A program made the position numbers and the translations under genes. Source: a bacterium (lineage in GTDB: Bacteria > UBA4055). From it: 64,000 bases of DNA. Shown here one piece after another: positions 33,226-60,565 of this stretch; position 1 is the first letter of the stretch, and each line of letters opens with the position of its first letter. The notes under the pieces were generated by a model that had not been told where the DNA came from, ran no database searches, and was given only the letters and a program-made list of their open reading frames with translations. The DNA is taken from contig JAKQBN010000030.1 in NCBI GenBank assembly GCA_029559475.1, positions 74,756 through 138,755 on the forward strand, given 5' to 3'.

Positions 33226-33237
33226 TCTATGATTCGT

Positions 33238-33362
33238 GCGAGACATAAGTTCACCTATAAACGGACCCTGCCTCATCAGGCCGATCGCTAGTTTGCAGCA
33301 GTTCGCGCACCTGCAGGTAAAGATAGTAACGGGATCCGTTTAAATCTGAACTTATGTCTCGC
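33238..33362 (-). repeat. Dispersed inverted-repeat element, copy 2 (125 bp)
   Basis: Perfect 16-bp terminal inverted repeats (GCGAGACATAAGTTCA), extending imperfectly to about 27 bp through AAACGGA. The interior matches copy 1 at 4837-4962 in the opposite orientation, with a perfect core of about 25 bases. The element could fold into a long cruciform or RNA hairpin. It has no coding capacity, so it would need a transposase in trans if mobile. Confidence 0.8.
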
Positions 33363-33387
33363 AACATTACCGACTGAGGTTATCAGT

Positions 33388-33644: not shown

Positions 33645-35333
33645 ATGAGCTATCTCGTTATAGCCAGAAAATACAGACCCCTAATATTCGAAGATGTGAT
33701 CGGACAGGAACACGTAACGACCACGATCACGAACGCGATAAAGAACAACAAAGTCCACCACGCCTATCTGCTCACAGGACCGAGAGGAGTGGGAAAAACA
33801 ACTATCTCAAGGATCCTTGCCAAATCGCTGAACTGCGAAACCGGAGTAACACCGCGGCCGTGCTGTAAATGCAGGAACTGTCTTGAAATAGACCAGGGGA
33901 TCAGCCTCGATGTAAAAGAGATAGACGGCGCTTCCAACAGAGGGATCGACGAAATAAGGGACCTAAGAGACGATATTAAATTCTCACCTGCTTCGAGCAG
34001 AAAGAAAATATATATAATCGATGAAGTTCACATGCTCACAAATCAGGCGTTCAACGCTCTTTTAAAGACGCTTGAAGAGCCTCCGGAACACGCGGTATTC
34101 ATATTCGCCACAACAGAAGCCAACGAAGTTCCGGCTACAATACTATCCAGATGCCAGAGGCACGATTTCAAACGAGTGGAGATACCGGTATTAACAAAAG
34201 CTTTGAAAACCATCTGCGAAAAAGAAGGCGTCTCGATCGATGATGAATCATTGATAATGATTGCAAAAAGCGGTGACGGATCTGTAAGGGATTCACAGTC
34301 GACACTGGATCAGGTAATAGCCTACGCCGGAAATAGCGTAACCGCTCAGCTGACCTACGAAGCTCTCGGACTGCCCGGACTCGATATGTTTTTTGATTTT
34401 CTCGATATTGCCATATCAAAAAACACAGGTTCACTACTGACATTTATTGACGGGATATTCGGAAAAGGTCTGCACATAATCTCGTTCGTAAAAGGTCTGA
34501 TGGAATTCTACAGAGACCTGCTAATCTTAAAAACAGTAAAAGACGCACGAATCCTCGACATGACCGGCGAGAACGTGATCCGGCTTGAAAAATATACTCA
34601 GAAATTCGGTGAAAAGGACATGCTGATGTTCTTAGACATACTCAGCCAGTCTGTTTCCAGACTCAAATCATCGCCTTACCAGCGGATGGAATTCGAGCTT
34701 ATTCTCTTAAAAATACTTCATCATGAGCCTGTAACCGAAATAGAAACTATACTACAAAAACTTTCTCTGATAGAAGGCGATCAGGAGATAAGCATAGATG
34801 AAATTGTAAAAGATGTTTCTTCTCGCCTGAACCTTCAGTCTGTTCAGACCCCTGCAGAAATTTCCGCTAAACAGGCAGAGATCAAAAAAAAAACTCCTGA
34901 AACAGTAGCGGAATCTGCCACACCGGATTCAGAAATAAAATTCGGATTGAAAGAGATCACAGACAGATGGAAAGAATTTATCGCTTACGTTTCAGAAAGC
35001 AATTCGAAACTCAATTTTCTTGAATATGGAGTGCCTTTCAATCTCAAAGACAACCGGAAACTCGAAGTAAAATTCGATCCTAAAGATAAAATATTCATGA
35101 ATCTCTGCGACTCGAAAAAAGAAGAAATAGAAAAGGAATTCGCAGCTTTTTATAAAGTTGATGATTTCAAAATAACTCTTATTAGAAGCGATGTAAAGGA
35201 CAGCGAAAGAATAATTGAGATAATACCCAAAAAGAAAAAAACCGATGATGAAAAAAAGAACGACCTTCTAAAAGAAGCTCCGCAGCTGAAATTTTTATTT
35301 GAAGACCCGTTCAATTGTAAATTTGTAGATTAA
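33645..35333 (+). CDS. dnaX: DNA polymerase III subunits tau (and probably gamma)
   Basis: 562 residues. The clamp-loader ATPase is complete: Walker A GPRGVGKT at 45-52, zinc Cys at 64, 73, 76 and 79, KIYIIDEVHMLT, and the SRC motif in TILSRCQRHDF. Residues about 400-440 form a charged linker, and the rest is the tau-specific domain that contacts the polymerase. An A10 run at codons 414-417 offers slippage to stops in both other frames, giving a product of about 418-420 residues, the size of gamma. It is followed by ybaB and recR in the conserved dnaX-ybaB-recR order. Confidence 0.96.
   Translation: MSYLVIARKYRPLIFEDVIGQEHVTTTITNAIKNNKVHHAYLLTGPRGVGKTTISRILAKSLNCETGVTPRPCCKCRNCLEIDQGISLDVKEIDGASNRGIDEIRDLRDDIKFSPASSRKKIYIIDEVHMLTNQAFNALLKTLEEPPEHAVFIFATTEANEVPATILSRCQRHDFKRVEIPVLTKALKTICEKEGVSIDDESLIMIAKSGDGSVRDSQSTLDQVIAYAGNSVTAQLTYEALGLPGLDMFFDFLDIAISKNTGSLLTFIDGIFGKGLHIISFVKGLMEFYRDLLILKTVKDARILDMTGENVIRLEKYTQKFGEKDMLMFLDILSQSVSRLKSSPYQRMEFELILLKILHHEPVTEIETILQKLSLIEGDQEISIDEIVKDVSSRLNLQSVQTPAEISAKQAEIKKKTPETVAESATPDSEIKFGLKEITDRWKEFIAYVSESNSKLNFLEYGVPFNLKDNRKLEVKFDPKDKIFMNLCDSKKEEIEKEFAAFYKVDDFKITLIRSDVKDSERIIEIIPKKKKTDDEKKNDLLKEAPQLKFLFEDPFNCKFVD
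34884..34908 (+). promoter_or_regulatory. dnaX A10 slippage/frameshift site with stops in both alternative frames
   Basis: Ten A residues (34884-34893) encode Lys-Lys-Lys plus the first base of Thr. Shifting by -1 reads AAC TCC TGA (stop 34898-34900); shifting by +1 reads CTC CTG AAA CAG TAG (stop 34906-34908). A purine-rich AGGCAGAG lies just upstream, at the place of the stimulatory ribosome site in E. coli dnaX. Confidence 0.65.
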
Positions 35334-54127: not shown

Positions 54128-55027
54128 CTATCTGTCGAGATTAAGGTTCAAGAGACTGCCTGTTTCTTCAGCTTCTTTGATCATAACCGATACGTTCTTT
54201 TTCAGTATTTCCCAGTCTTCGAGCCATATAGACGGTTTTAACTTGTCTATCTGTCTATTCAGATTTATGATCATATTCTGTTTTTTCGCATTCACTATCT
54301 CTGTTATTTTAGAATCCGTTCTATTGATAAGTTCTACAGCTTTATTCATAAGATCGTATCTTCTGCTCTGAAAAAGCTTGTCGATCAGAAGATACTGCTC
54401 CTGCAGTGTTTTTATTTCTTTCGGCCCGATATAATCTTTATATTTTGCAAAGAAATTTTTCGAAACTTCGTATTTTTTTTTTGCGACAAGGTATATATTG
54501 GTGTATTTTTCCTTATTATCGGTGTTTATTCTATTCAGTTCATCGAACATTTCATCGGATCTAAGCTCATAAAACACATAACTGTCGCGTCTGAGTATAT
54601 CTTTTAATAGGTTCAGTTTGTTATGAAATTCAATAAAGATCTCGGGATCGACCATACAGGAATCTTCTGCATATTTTTCAATAAGACGCTCTGCTTCGAT
54701 TACTTTCGCGTTATATTTTTCAAGAGAAGACGTTTTTTTAGCGTTCAAATGATATCCGATCTCATCCATGACCGGCAGTATTTCGGCTTCGAATCTGATG
54801 TACGGTTTTTTTATAGTCCACGGGATTTTGTTTTTCAGTATTAGGAATTTGTCGGTATCTTTTTGGGAAAAACGTACATTTTCAGGCATATCTTCAGTAA
54901 TTCTTAATGCACAGAGATAACTGAAAAAAGAATCCGGCCTGATAAGGTTCTCGATCTGAGTTATCTTTAGAAGAGTGTCTCTTCCGTCTGAAGTATCCGA
55001 ATATTTACTTTTAATAAAAGTGATCAT
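54128..55027 (-). CDS. Helical protein of unknown function
   Basis: 299 residues, almost wholly helical and charged, with coiled-coil-like stretches (EKYNAKVIEAERLIEKYAED; ELVNRTDSKITEIVNAKKQN region near the end). No signal peptide. Its ATG overlaps the upstream stop (ATGA at 55024-55027), so it pairs with the TPR-like gene. It ends at a TAG after NLNLDR, and the frame continues for 93 codons beyond. I do not recognise a family. Confidence 0.65.
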   Translation of the reverse strand: MITFIKSKYSDTSDGRDTLLKITQIENLIRPDSFFSYLCALRITEDMPENVRFSQKDTDKFLILKNKIPWTIKKPYIRFEAEILPVMDEIGYHLNAKKTSSLEKYNAKVIEAERLIEKYAEDSCMVDPEIFIEFHNKLNLLKDILRRDSYVFYELRSDEMFDELNRINTDNKEKYTNIYLVAKKKYEVSKNFFAKYKDYIGPKEIKTLQEQYLLIDKLFQSRRYDLMNKAVELINRTDSKITEIVNAKKQNMIINLNRQIDKLKPSIWLEDWEILKKNVSVMIKEAEETGSLLNLNLDR

Positions 55028-59614: not shown

Positions 59615-60565
59615 CTAGAGTTTGATTTCCATTCCTTCGTTGGATATTATGATTTCCAGATCTGATCCCGGATATTTTTCCGACCTGTATTTAAGGGCAG
59701 AATAATAAAGAGACGCGATCTTTTCGTCATTGTTTTCGTGATTGTGATGATATAGAACGAGCTTTTTTACATTTGAATTTACCGCAGCGTCAACTCCGAT
59801 CTCGGCTGTGGAATGTCCGTAATTGTATCTCTGAGCCAGTTCGTTGAAATTATATTGGCTGTCAAATATCAGAATATCAGCTCTATTGAAAAATTCGAAA
59901 TAATGGTTCAGTACTGAATTAGCCGTATATTCGCCGTCTGTGGCATATACAACGGACATTCCTGAAGCATCGGTAACTCTGTAGCTGTACGATCCGTTAG
60001 GGTGGTTCAACCTCATCGAACTGATCTTAAAACTGCCAATACTTACATTTTCCTTTTCTTCAAGTTCGTAAAAATTCATTTTGCAAGGTCTGCTTTCCAG
60101 GCTGATCGGGAAATAACTCCCGTTCTGCTGAAGTTCCAGCATTTTCTCGAAACCTTTATGATGCGAATAAAAATTAATTTGTACATCTTTAAAATGAACG
60201 GGCGAAAAAAAAGGCAGGCCGTTTATGTGATCCAGATGAAGGTGTGAAAAAAAGATATTGTATTCTTTTTTTTTTTTGTTAAAAAACCTTCCGGCTAAAA
60301 GATCTCCTCCGAGTTTTCTTATACCGGTTCCGGCATCGAATATCAGAAGGTCTTCTCCGTCATCTATTGTCACGCATGATGTATTGCCGCCGTAAGTGGT
60401 TCTGAGGCCGTCCGGAAGTGAATCTATGAATGACTGTTTTCTGTCGGCAGATGAAAGATCTTTTCCGGCCGATAACTCCAGTATTTTTTCGATCTTCTCT
60501 CTATACTGATCAGGATCGAGCGGAGAACAAATGCTTCCTCTTACTCCCCAGAACTTTAAATTCAT
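59615..60565 (-). CDS. Metallo-beta-lactamase-fold hydrolase
   Basis: 316 residues. FWGVRGSICSP at the start, TTYGGNTSCV, then the metal motif FFSHLHLDHINGLPFF and a second Asp/His set (YATDGEY, FDSQYN, YGHSTAEIG, LYHHNHEN). This is the group that contains cyclic-nucleotide and phosphodiesterase-like enzymes as well as many of unknown role. No signal peptide. It heads the pepD-ABC unit and has its own promoter. The substrate is open; the distant cyclase gene is not a sufficient argument for a phosphodiesterase. Confidence 0.88.
   Translation of the reverse strand: MNLKFWGVRGSICSPLDPDQYREKIEKILELSAGKDLSSADRKQSFIDSLPDGLRTTYGGNTSCVTIDDGEDLLIFDAGTGIRKLGGDLLAGRFFNKKKKEYNIFFSHLHLDHINGLPFFSPVHFKDVQINFYSHHKGFEKMLELQQNGSYFPISLESRPCKMNFYELEEKENVSIGSFKISSMRLNHPNGSYSYRVTDASGMSVVYATDGEYTANSVLNHYFEFFNRADILIFDSQYNFNELAQRYNYGHSTAEIGVDAAVNSNVKKLVLYHHNHENNDEKIASLYYSALKYRSEKYPGSDLEIIISNEGMEIKL

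Follow-up and report, generated by a model that had tools for sequence, protein, structure and literature searches.

We analyzed a stretch of 64,000 nucleotides (the window) from a bacterium of the lineage UBA4055 (GenBank assembly GCA_029559475.1, contig JAKQBN010000030.1, positions 74,756 to 138,755), in particular dnaX, whose full-length frame encodes tau. An uninterrupted run of ten A residues (A10) in the linker part of this gene is probably (we put the probability at about 0.8) a site of programmed transcriptional slippage that would yield a gamma-like short product, as in Thermus thermophilus. Slippage-programmed dnaX is already known, mainly from Thermus, and the present gene appears, on comparative grounds, to be a well-supported further case in a small bacterial phylum. 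This bears on a disputed question, namely whether tau alone suffices for bacteria or a short DnaX (gamma) is needed as well.

The A10 run and its conservation

The A10 run lies about 74% along dnaX, is read as AAA AAA AAA followed by ACT (codons 414–417) and leaves the 0 frame open for another 146 codons. A preliminary description of the window had located it in the linker between the clamp-loader ATPase and the tau tail, which was confirmed by coordinates, Pfam and AlphaFold; it had also stated that any shift of one base would end at a TGA or a TAG, giving products of 418–420 amino acids (aa), and we found exactly 418 and 420 aa for the two frames (Table 1). In the AlphaFold model, the clamp-loader core is joined to a folded C-terminal domain by a linker with a predicted local distance difference test score (pLDDT) below 50, and the run falls within this linker. 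A synonymous recoding of the run would be AAGAAGAAG.

According to the proposed mechanism, RNA polymerase would slip on the run, so that some transcripts would carry a number of A's differing from ten by a non-multiple of three. Normal translation of these transcripts would reach one of the two near off-frame stops and give a gamma-like protein of 418–420 aa, and transcripts with 7, 10 or 13 A's would give tau. Judged from the model, the short protein would contain the complete clamp-loader core without any of the folded tau-specific tail. Its role in clamp loading, like the efficiency of slippage, is presumed.

Conservation in close relatives, which the preliminary description had put forward as a check, was found. 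Thirteen genomes represented the phylum. We detected dnaX in 12 of them, 10 of which have an uninterrupted, in-frame A9–A11 run in the linker (seven genes have A10, two A11 and one A9). The codon phase of the run is not constant (phase 0 in six genes, phase 1 in four), and the flanking residues, like the linker as a whole, differ in sequence and length. Four-fold synonymous sites are saturated (23–36% identical to G000), but AAA is used for every Lys within the runs (28/28; product of AAA shares 1.1e-4). When the genes were resampled with proteins fixed, 4.3 dnaX genes with A≥9 were expected and 10 were found (nominal P = 1.6e-4); this expectation ignores the genome-wide avoidance of such runs described below, the inclusion of which would lower it. 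Both off-frame stops lie within nine codons of the run in all ten A9–A11 genes, a proximity that is weak evidence within the family (gene fractions 0.08–0.20 each). As a control, orthologues of the other three A≥10 genes of the genome keep the run in 0/9, 0/7 and 0/2 cases. It is therefore the conservation in relatives, not the single occurrence, that makes the A10 of dnaX significant, and by this comparison it does not appear to be a product of chance. Together with the linker position and the near stops, the persistence of the run through changes of phase, flanks and synonymous sites supports the earlier suggestion that slippage, in the manner of Thermus, would produce a gamma-sized protein.

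Table 1. Coordinates of dnaX and its features in the window
Feature	Position	Strand	Basis
dnaX, full-length tau reading frame, 562 aa	33645..35333	+	NCBIfam TIGR02397 and Pfam
Clamp-loader core, domains I–III, codons 1–369; common to the long and the predicted short product	33645..34751	+	Pfam, structure match
Predicted disordered linker, codons 395–429	34827..34931	+	AlphaFold pLDDT <50
A10, putative slippery run, codons 414–416 and first base of 417	34884..34893	+	
TGA stop, -1 frame (transcript with one extra A); predicted product 418 aa, end KKKNS	34898..34900	+	
TAG stop, +1 frame (transcript with one A fewer); predicted product 420 aa, end KKKLLKQ	34906..34908	+	
Folded C-terminal tau-specific domain, codons ~434–514; absent from the predicted short product	34944..35186	+	AlphaFold

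Avoidance of A runs and competing explanations

Long A runs are avoided in the genome (2.28 Mb assembly, 92% complete, 41% GC). Following the avoidance approach of Baranov et al. (PMC1088944), we examined run statistics in 154 kb of sampled genes together with whole-genome pattern counts. In the sampled genes, the ratio of observed to expected sense A runs was 1.07, 1.11 and 1.07 for A5, A6 and A7, respectively, and fell to 0.68 for A8 and 0.24 for A9. Both strands of the whole assembly contain 72 runs of A≥9 and seven distinct runs of A≥10, as compared with ~260 and ~91 expected in coding sequence by synonymous resampling scaled from the 154 kb. AAA makes up 70% of the Lys codons in the genome, and an all-AAA spelling was seen in 5 of the 36 Lys-Lys-Lys triplets in the sampled genes. 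Thus, the A10 of dnaX runs counter to the habit of this genome. In-frame heptamers were not avoided in the same genes, neither A_AAA_AAG (46 observed versus 27.0 expected) nor A_AAA_AAA (54 versus 61.3). Since avoidance tracks run length and spares heptamers, it is more readily explained by slippage of the polymerase than of the ribosome. It should be noted that the same pattern could arise in part from selection against replication slippage, and that runs of T≥8 (2 observed versus 2.8 expected) were too few to separate slippage of RNA polymerase from that of the ribosome. The retention of a truncating A run by a phylum that otherwise avoids such runs provides evidence of selection for the short form.

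Several points weigh against programmed transcriptional slippage. One dnaX gene of the phylum (G004) has only A8 and another (G006) has no run. The run lengths come from draft assemblies, and the P values are nominal because related members of one family were treated as independent. When the linker of the window was resampled alone, A≥9 arose in 51% of trials, so that one A10 in one Lys-rich linker is not decisive by itself, and its significance would come from the relatives. In addition, the sole tRNA-Lys found in the genome (within the 92% assembled) and in its relatives is the UUU species. As in Escherichia coli, where this is also the case, ribosomes might slip too, and tRNA-Lys content did not discriminate between the mechanisms.

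The 51% figure, the dominance of AAA among Lys codons and the tolerance of Lys in flexible linkers would also suit an account without any programmed event, in which the linker, being rich in Lys and unconstrained, is by chance spelled with AAA in a genome that is fairly AT-rich. However, such an account would have to accommodate ten genes with a run instead of 4.3, AAA at every Lys codon despite saturated synonymous sites, the avoidance of such runs genome-wide, their loss from the control genes, and an enrichment that recurs in 162 other dnaX genes, GC-rich ones included (see below); we consider it very improbable. Tau is expected to be essential, as judged from E. coli. Phase variation, by which replication slippage in DNA would toggle tau between cells, is hardly credible here, given that the run has an in-frame length in all ten assemblies and that the off state would be lethal if tau is essential, although such long homopolymers mutate readily and a run that is conserved might serve as a contingency locus.

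A programmed -1 ribosomal frameshift on A_AAA_AAA within the run, resembling that of E. coli dnaX and leaving the mRNA homogeneous, deserves more attention but still seems unlikely. The single tRNA-Lys(UUU), the in-frame A_AAA_AAA present within every A≥9 run and the -1 stop two codons away in the window dnaX speak for such a frameshift. On the other hand, no Shine-Dalgarno-like element was present in the 25 nucleotides before the run in the ten A9–A11 genes, and no consistent downstream stem-loop was found across them (z -0.88 to -1.19 in the window), one gene being an exception in the hairpin search (L029, z -2.55 to -2.97). The heptamer A_AAA_AAG is absent from the linker run, and its sole in-frame copy in the window dnaX is at codon 536, near the C-terminus. 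Moreover, at least nine A's are kept, beyond the need of a heptamer and in differing codon phases, and in-frame A_AAA_AAR heptamers are not avoided genome-wide. The lack of AAG in the run, the absence of a common Shine-Dalgarno-like element or hairpin, and the retention of run length whatever the codon phase lead us to favor transcription as the main source of the inferred slippage.

The A8 gene of G004 (L031) differs in that GAGGAGG stands just upstream of A8 (A_AAA_AAA) at the end of the linker (codons 443–450). It is possibly a Shine-Dalgarno-stimulated ribosomal variant, in which case it would count in favor of ribosomal frameshifting, or the motif may merely represent Glu-Glu codons.

Gamma is known to arise by ribosomal -1 frameshifting in E. 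coli, transcriptional slippage in Thermus and proteolysis in Caulobacter (PMC5009743; PMC1088944; PMC3711429). The signals in E. coli dnaX are A_AAA_AAG, a Shine-Dalgarno-like element and a stem-loop. The window dnaX resembles that gene in its single tau open reading frame (ORF), in truncation after domain III (gamma of 431 aa versus 418–420 aa predicted here) and in the one tRNA-Lys, whereas its run has no AAG and is accompanied by neither a Shine-Dalgarno-like element nor a consistent stem-loop. T. thermophilus dnaX, as summarized in two later papers, slips in transcription on A9 with stops in both other frames (Larsen et al., 2000, via PMC1088944 and PMC5009743). In these accounts, it shares with the window dnaX a single tau ORF, a sense A run of at least nine, near stops in both frames and a gamma-sized short product (predicted in our case). 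As far as they describe it, the Thermus run lies at seven-eighths of the gene rather than ~74%, there are two tRNA-Lys rather than the UUU species alone, and slippage has been demonstrated there, whereas here it is predicted from the sequence; the 41% GC of the present host is a further difference. Two-ORF poly-A dnaX genes with A7–A10 runs have been interpreted as transcriptional realignment (Antonov et al., 2013; PMC3711429); in those, gamma is the product of the 0 frame and a shift is required for tau, whereas in the window dnaX tau is the 0 frame.

A runs in dnaX linkers across bacteria

We also surveyed 162 dnaX loci outside the family, which were selected for their similarity to the query and from different families and are thus a non-random set that may include some near relatives. 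Loci were located by tblastn, as a motif search had missed 21 of 174. No A≥9 run occurred in 175 kb of codons 1–360, as against 15 in 37.7 kb of codons 360–440; in 525 kb flanking the loci, there were six runs of at least nine (A or T). Of the 157 testable dnaX genes, 14 had a run, versus 6.5 expected when protein and codon use were kept constant (P = 3e-4), and genes with a run include GC-rich loci from Verrucomicrobia (L106, 60% GC) and Gemmata sp. IIL30 (L124, A9, 64% GC). Besides this Gemmata, the culturable species with a run include Chitinophaga terrae (L104, A10) and Mucilaginibacter psychrotolerans (L119, A10). The median distance from the run to the farther off-frame stop was 5 codons, compared with 17 at other positions in the same genes (19 lineages; Fisher P = 1e-6); because the fractions within the family are weak, stop proximity is convincing only over these 19 lineages.

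On this sequence evidence, the dnaX linker is a hot spot of A runs across bacteria. Whether it is also a slippage site used repeatedly and bacteria-wide is less certain, but we lean slightly toward this view, since unrelated lineages, including genomes of 60–69% GC, have A9–A11 after the core and near stops. According to a 2012 review (PMC3290774), a frameshift signature has not been retained in the dnaX of most bacteria. If bacteria-wide slippage in the linker is true, a gamma-like short DnaX made through RNA polymerase would be far commoner than the tau-only view of most bacteria suggests. The enrichment across bacteria is a more interesting outcome than the case in a single phylum.

Four loci (L038, L048, L295 and L298) have the reverse, two-ORF arrangement, in which a 0-frame stop comes immediately after A9 or A10, with the -1 frame remaining open, for 160–207 codons where measured. 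Genes of this type were described by Antonov et al. (PMC3711429), and two of the four are GC-rich (L295, 68%; L298, 64%). As read from their frames, tau in these four would need slippage. In three other loci, A10 was located not in the linker but close to the C-terminal end of dnaX (L188, codon 519; L198, codon 498; L069, codon 523; two at 57–63% GC), possibly representing a second slip zone.

Domain layout and other observations in the genome

The assignment of dnaX is clear: the product scored 434.7 bits with TIGR02397 dnaX_nterm (cut-off 250), matched DNA_pol3_delta2, DNAX_ATPase_lid and DNA_pol3_gamma3 in Pfam, with domain III ending at residue 369, and matched E. coli gamma chains over residues 1–362. 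The AlphaFold model, built from an alignment of 34 sequences, had a mean pLDDT of 85.7, and its core agreed with E. coli gamma 1jr3_A (TMt 0.92). Block means for the tail domain (residues 431–510) were mostly 86–95, and its fold was unchanged when modelled alone. A fold search with the tail domain gave nothing at E <0.001, and the domain can thus not be equated with E. coli tau domain V on this basis. The best PDB matches, from an entry of DnaA domain I with SirA, had E values of 0.014–0.026, and kinship to them is suggestive at most.

Upstream of dnaX there is a 145-bp near-palindrome (33228–33372) with 17-bp perfect outer arms and an RNA fold of -59.1 kcal/mol (z -7.2). It is a dispersed repeat with about a dozen more copies in the genome (74–84% identity); a few copies were seen in the same genus and none elsewhere in the phylum, and Rfam gave no match.

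The other A≥10 genes are of various kinds. One, elsewhere in the same genome (L241:9148-10989, minus strand), encodes a sigma-54-type regulator of 613 aa that has a receiver-like part, and its A10 is absent in two long orthologues. In the window, a metallo-beta-lactamase/RNase Z-like gene (ORF 59615–60565) has A12 in the sense direction just before the HxHxDH motif (60266–60277, minus strand); this run is absent from nine orthologues and is possibly young or phase-variable. Finally, an ORF of 299 aa belonging to no known family (54128–55027) contains A10 at 54473–54482 (minus strand). Its orthologues have ~490–503 aa without the run, and the copy in the window looks, from this comparison, shortened at its C-terminal end.
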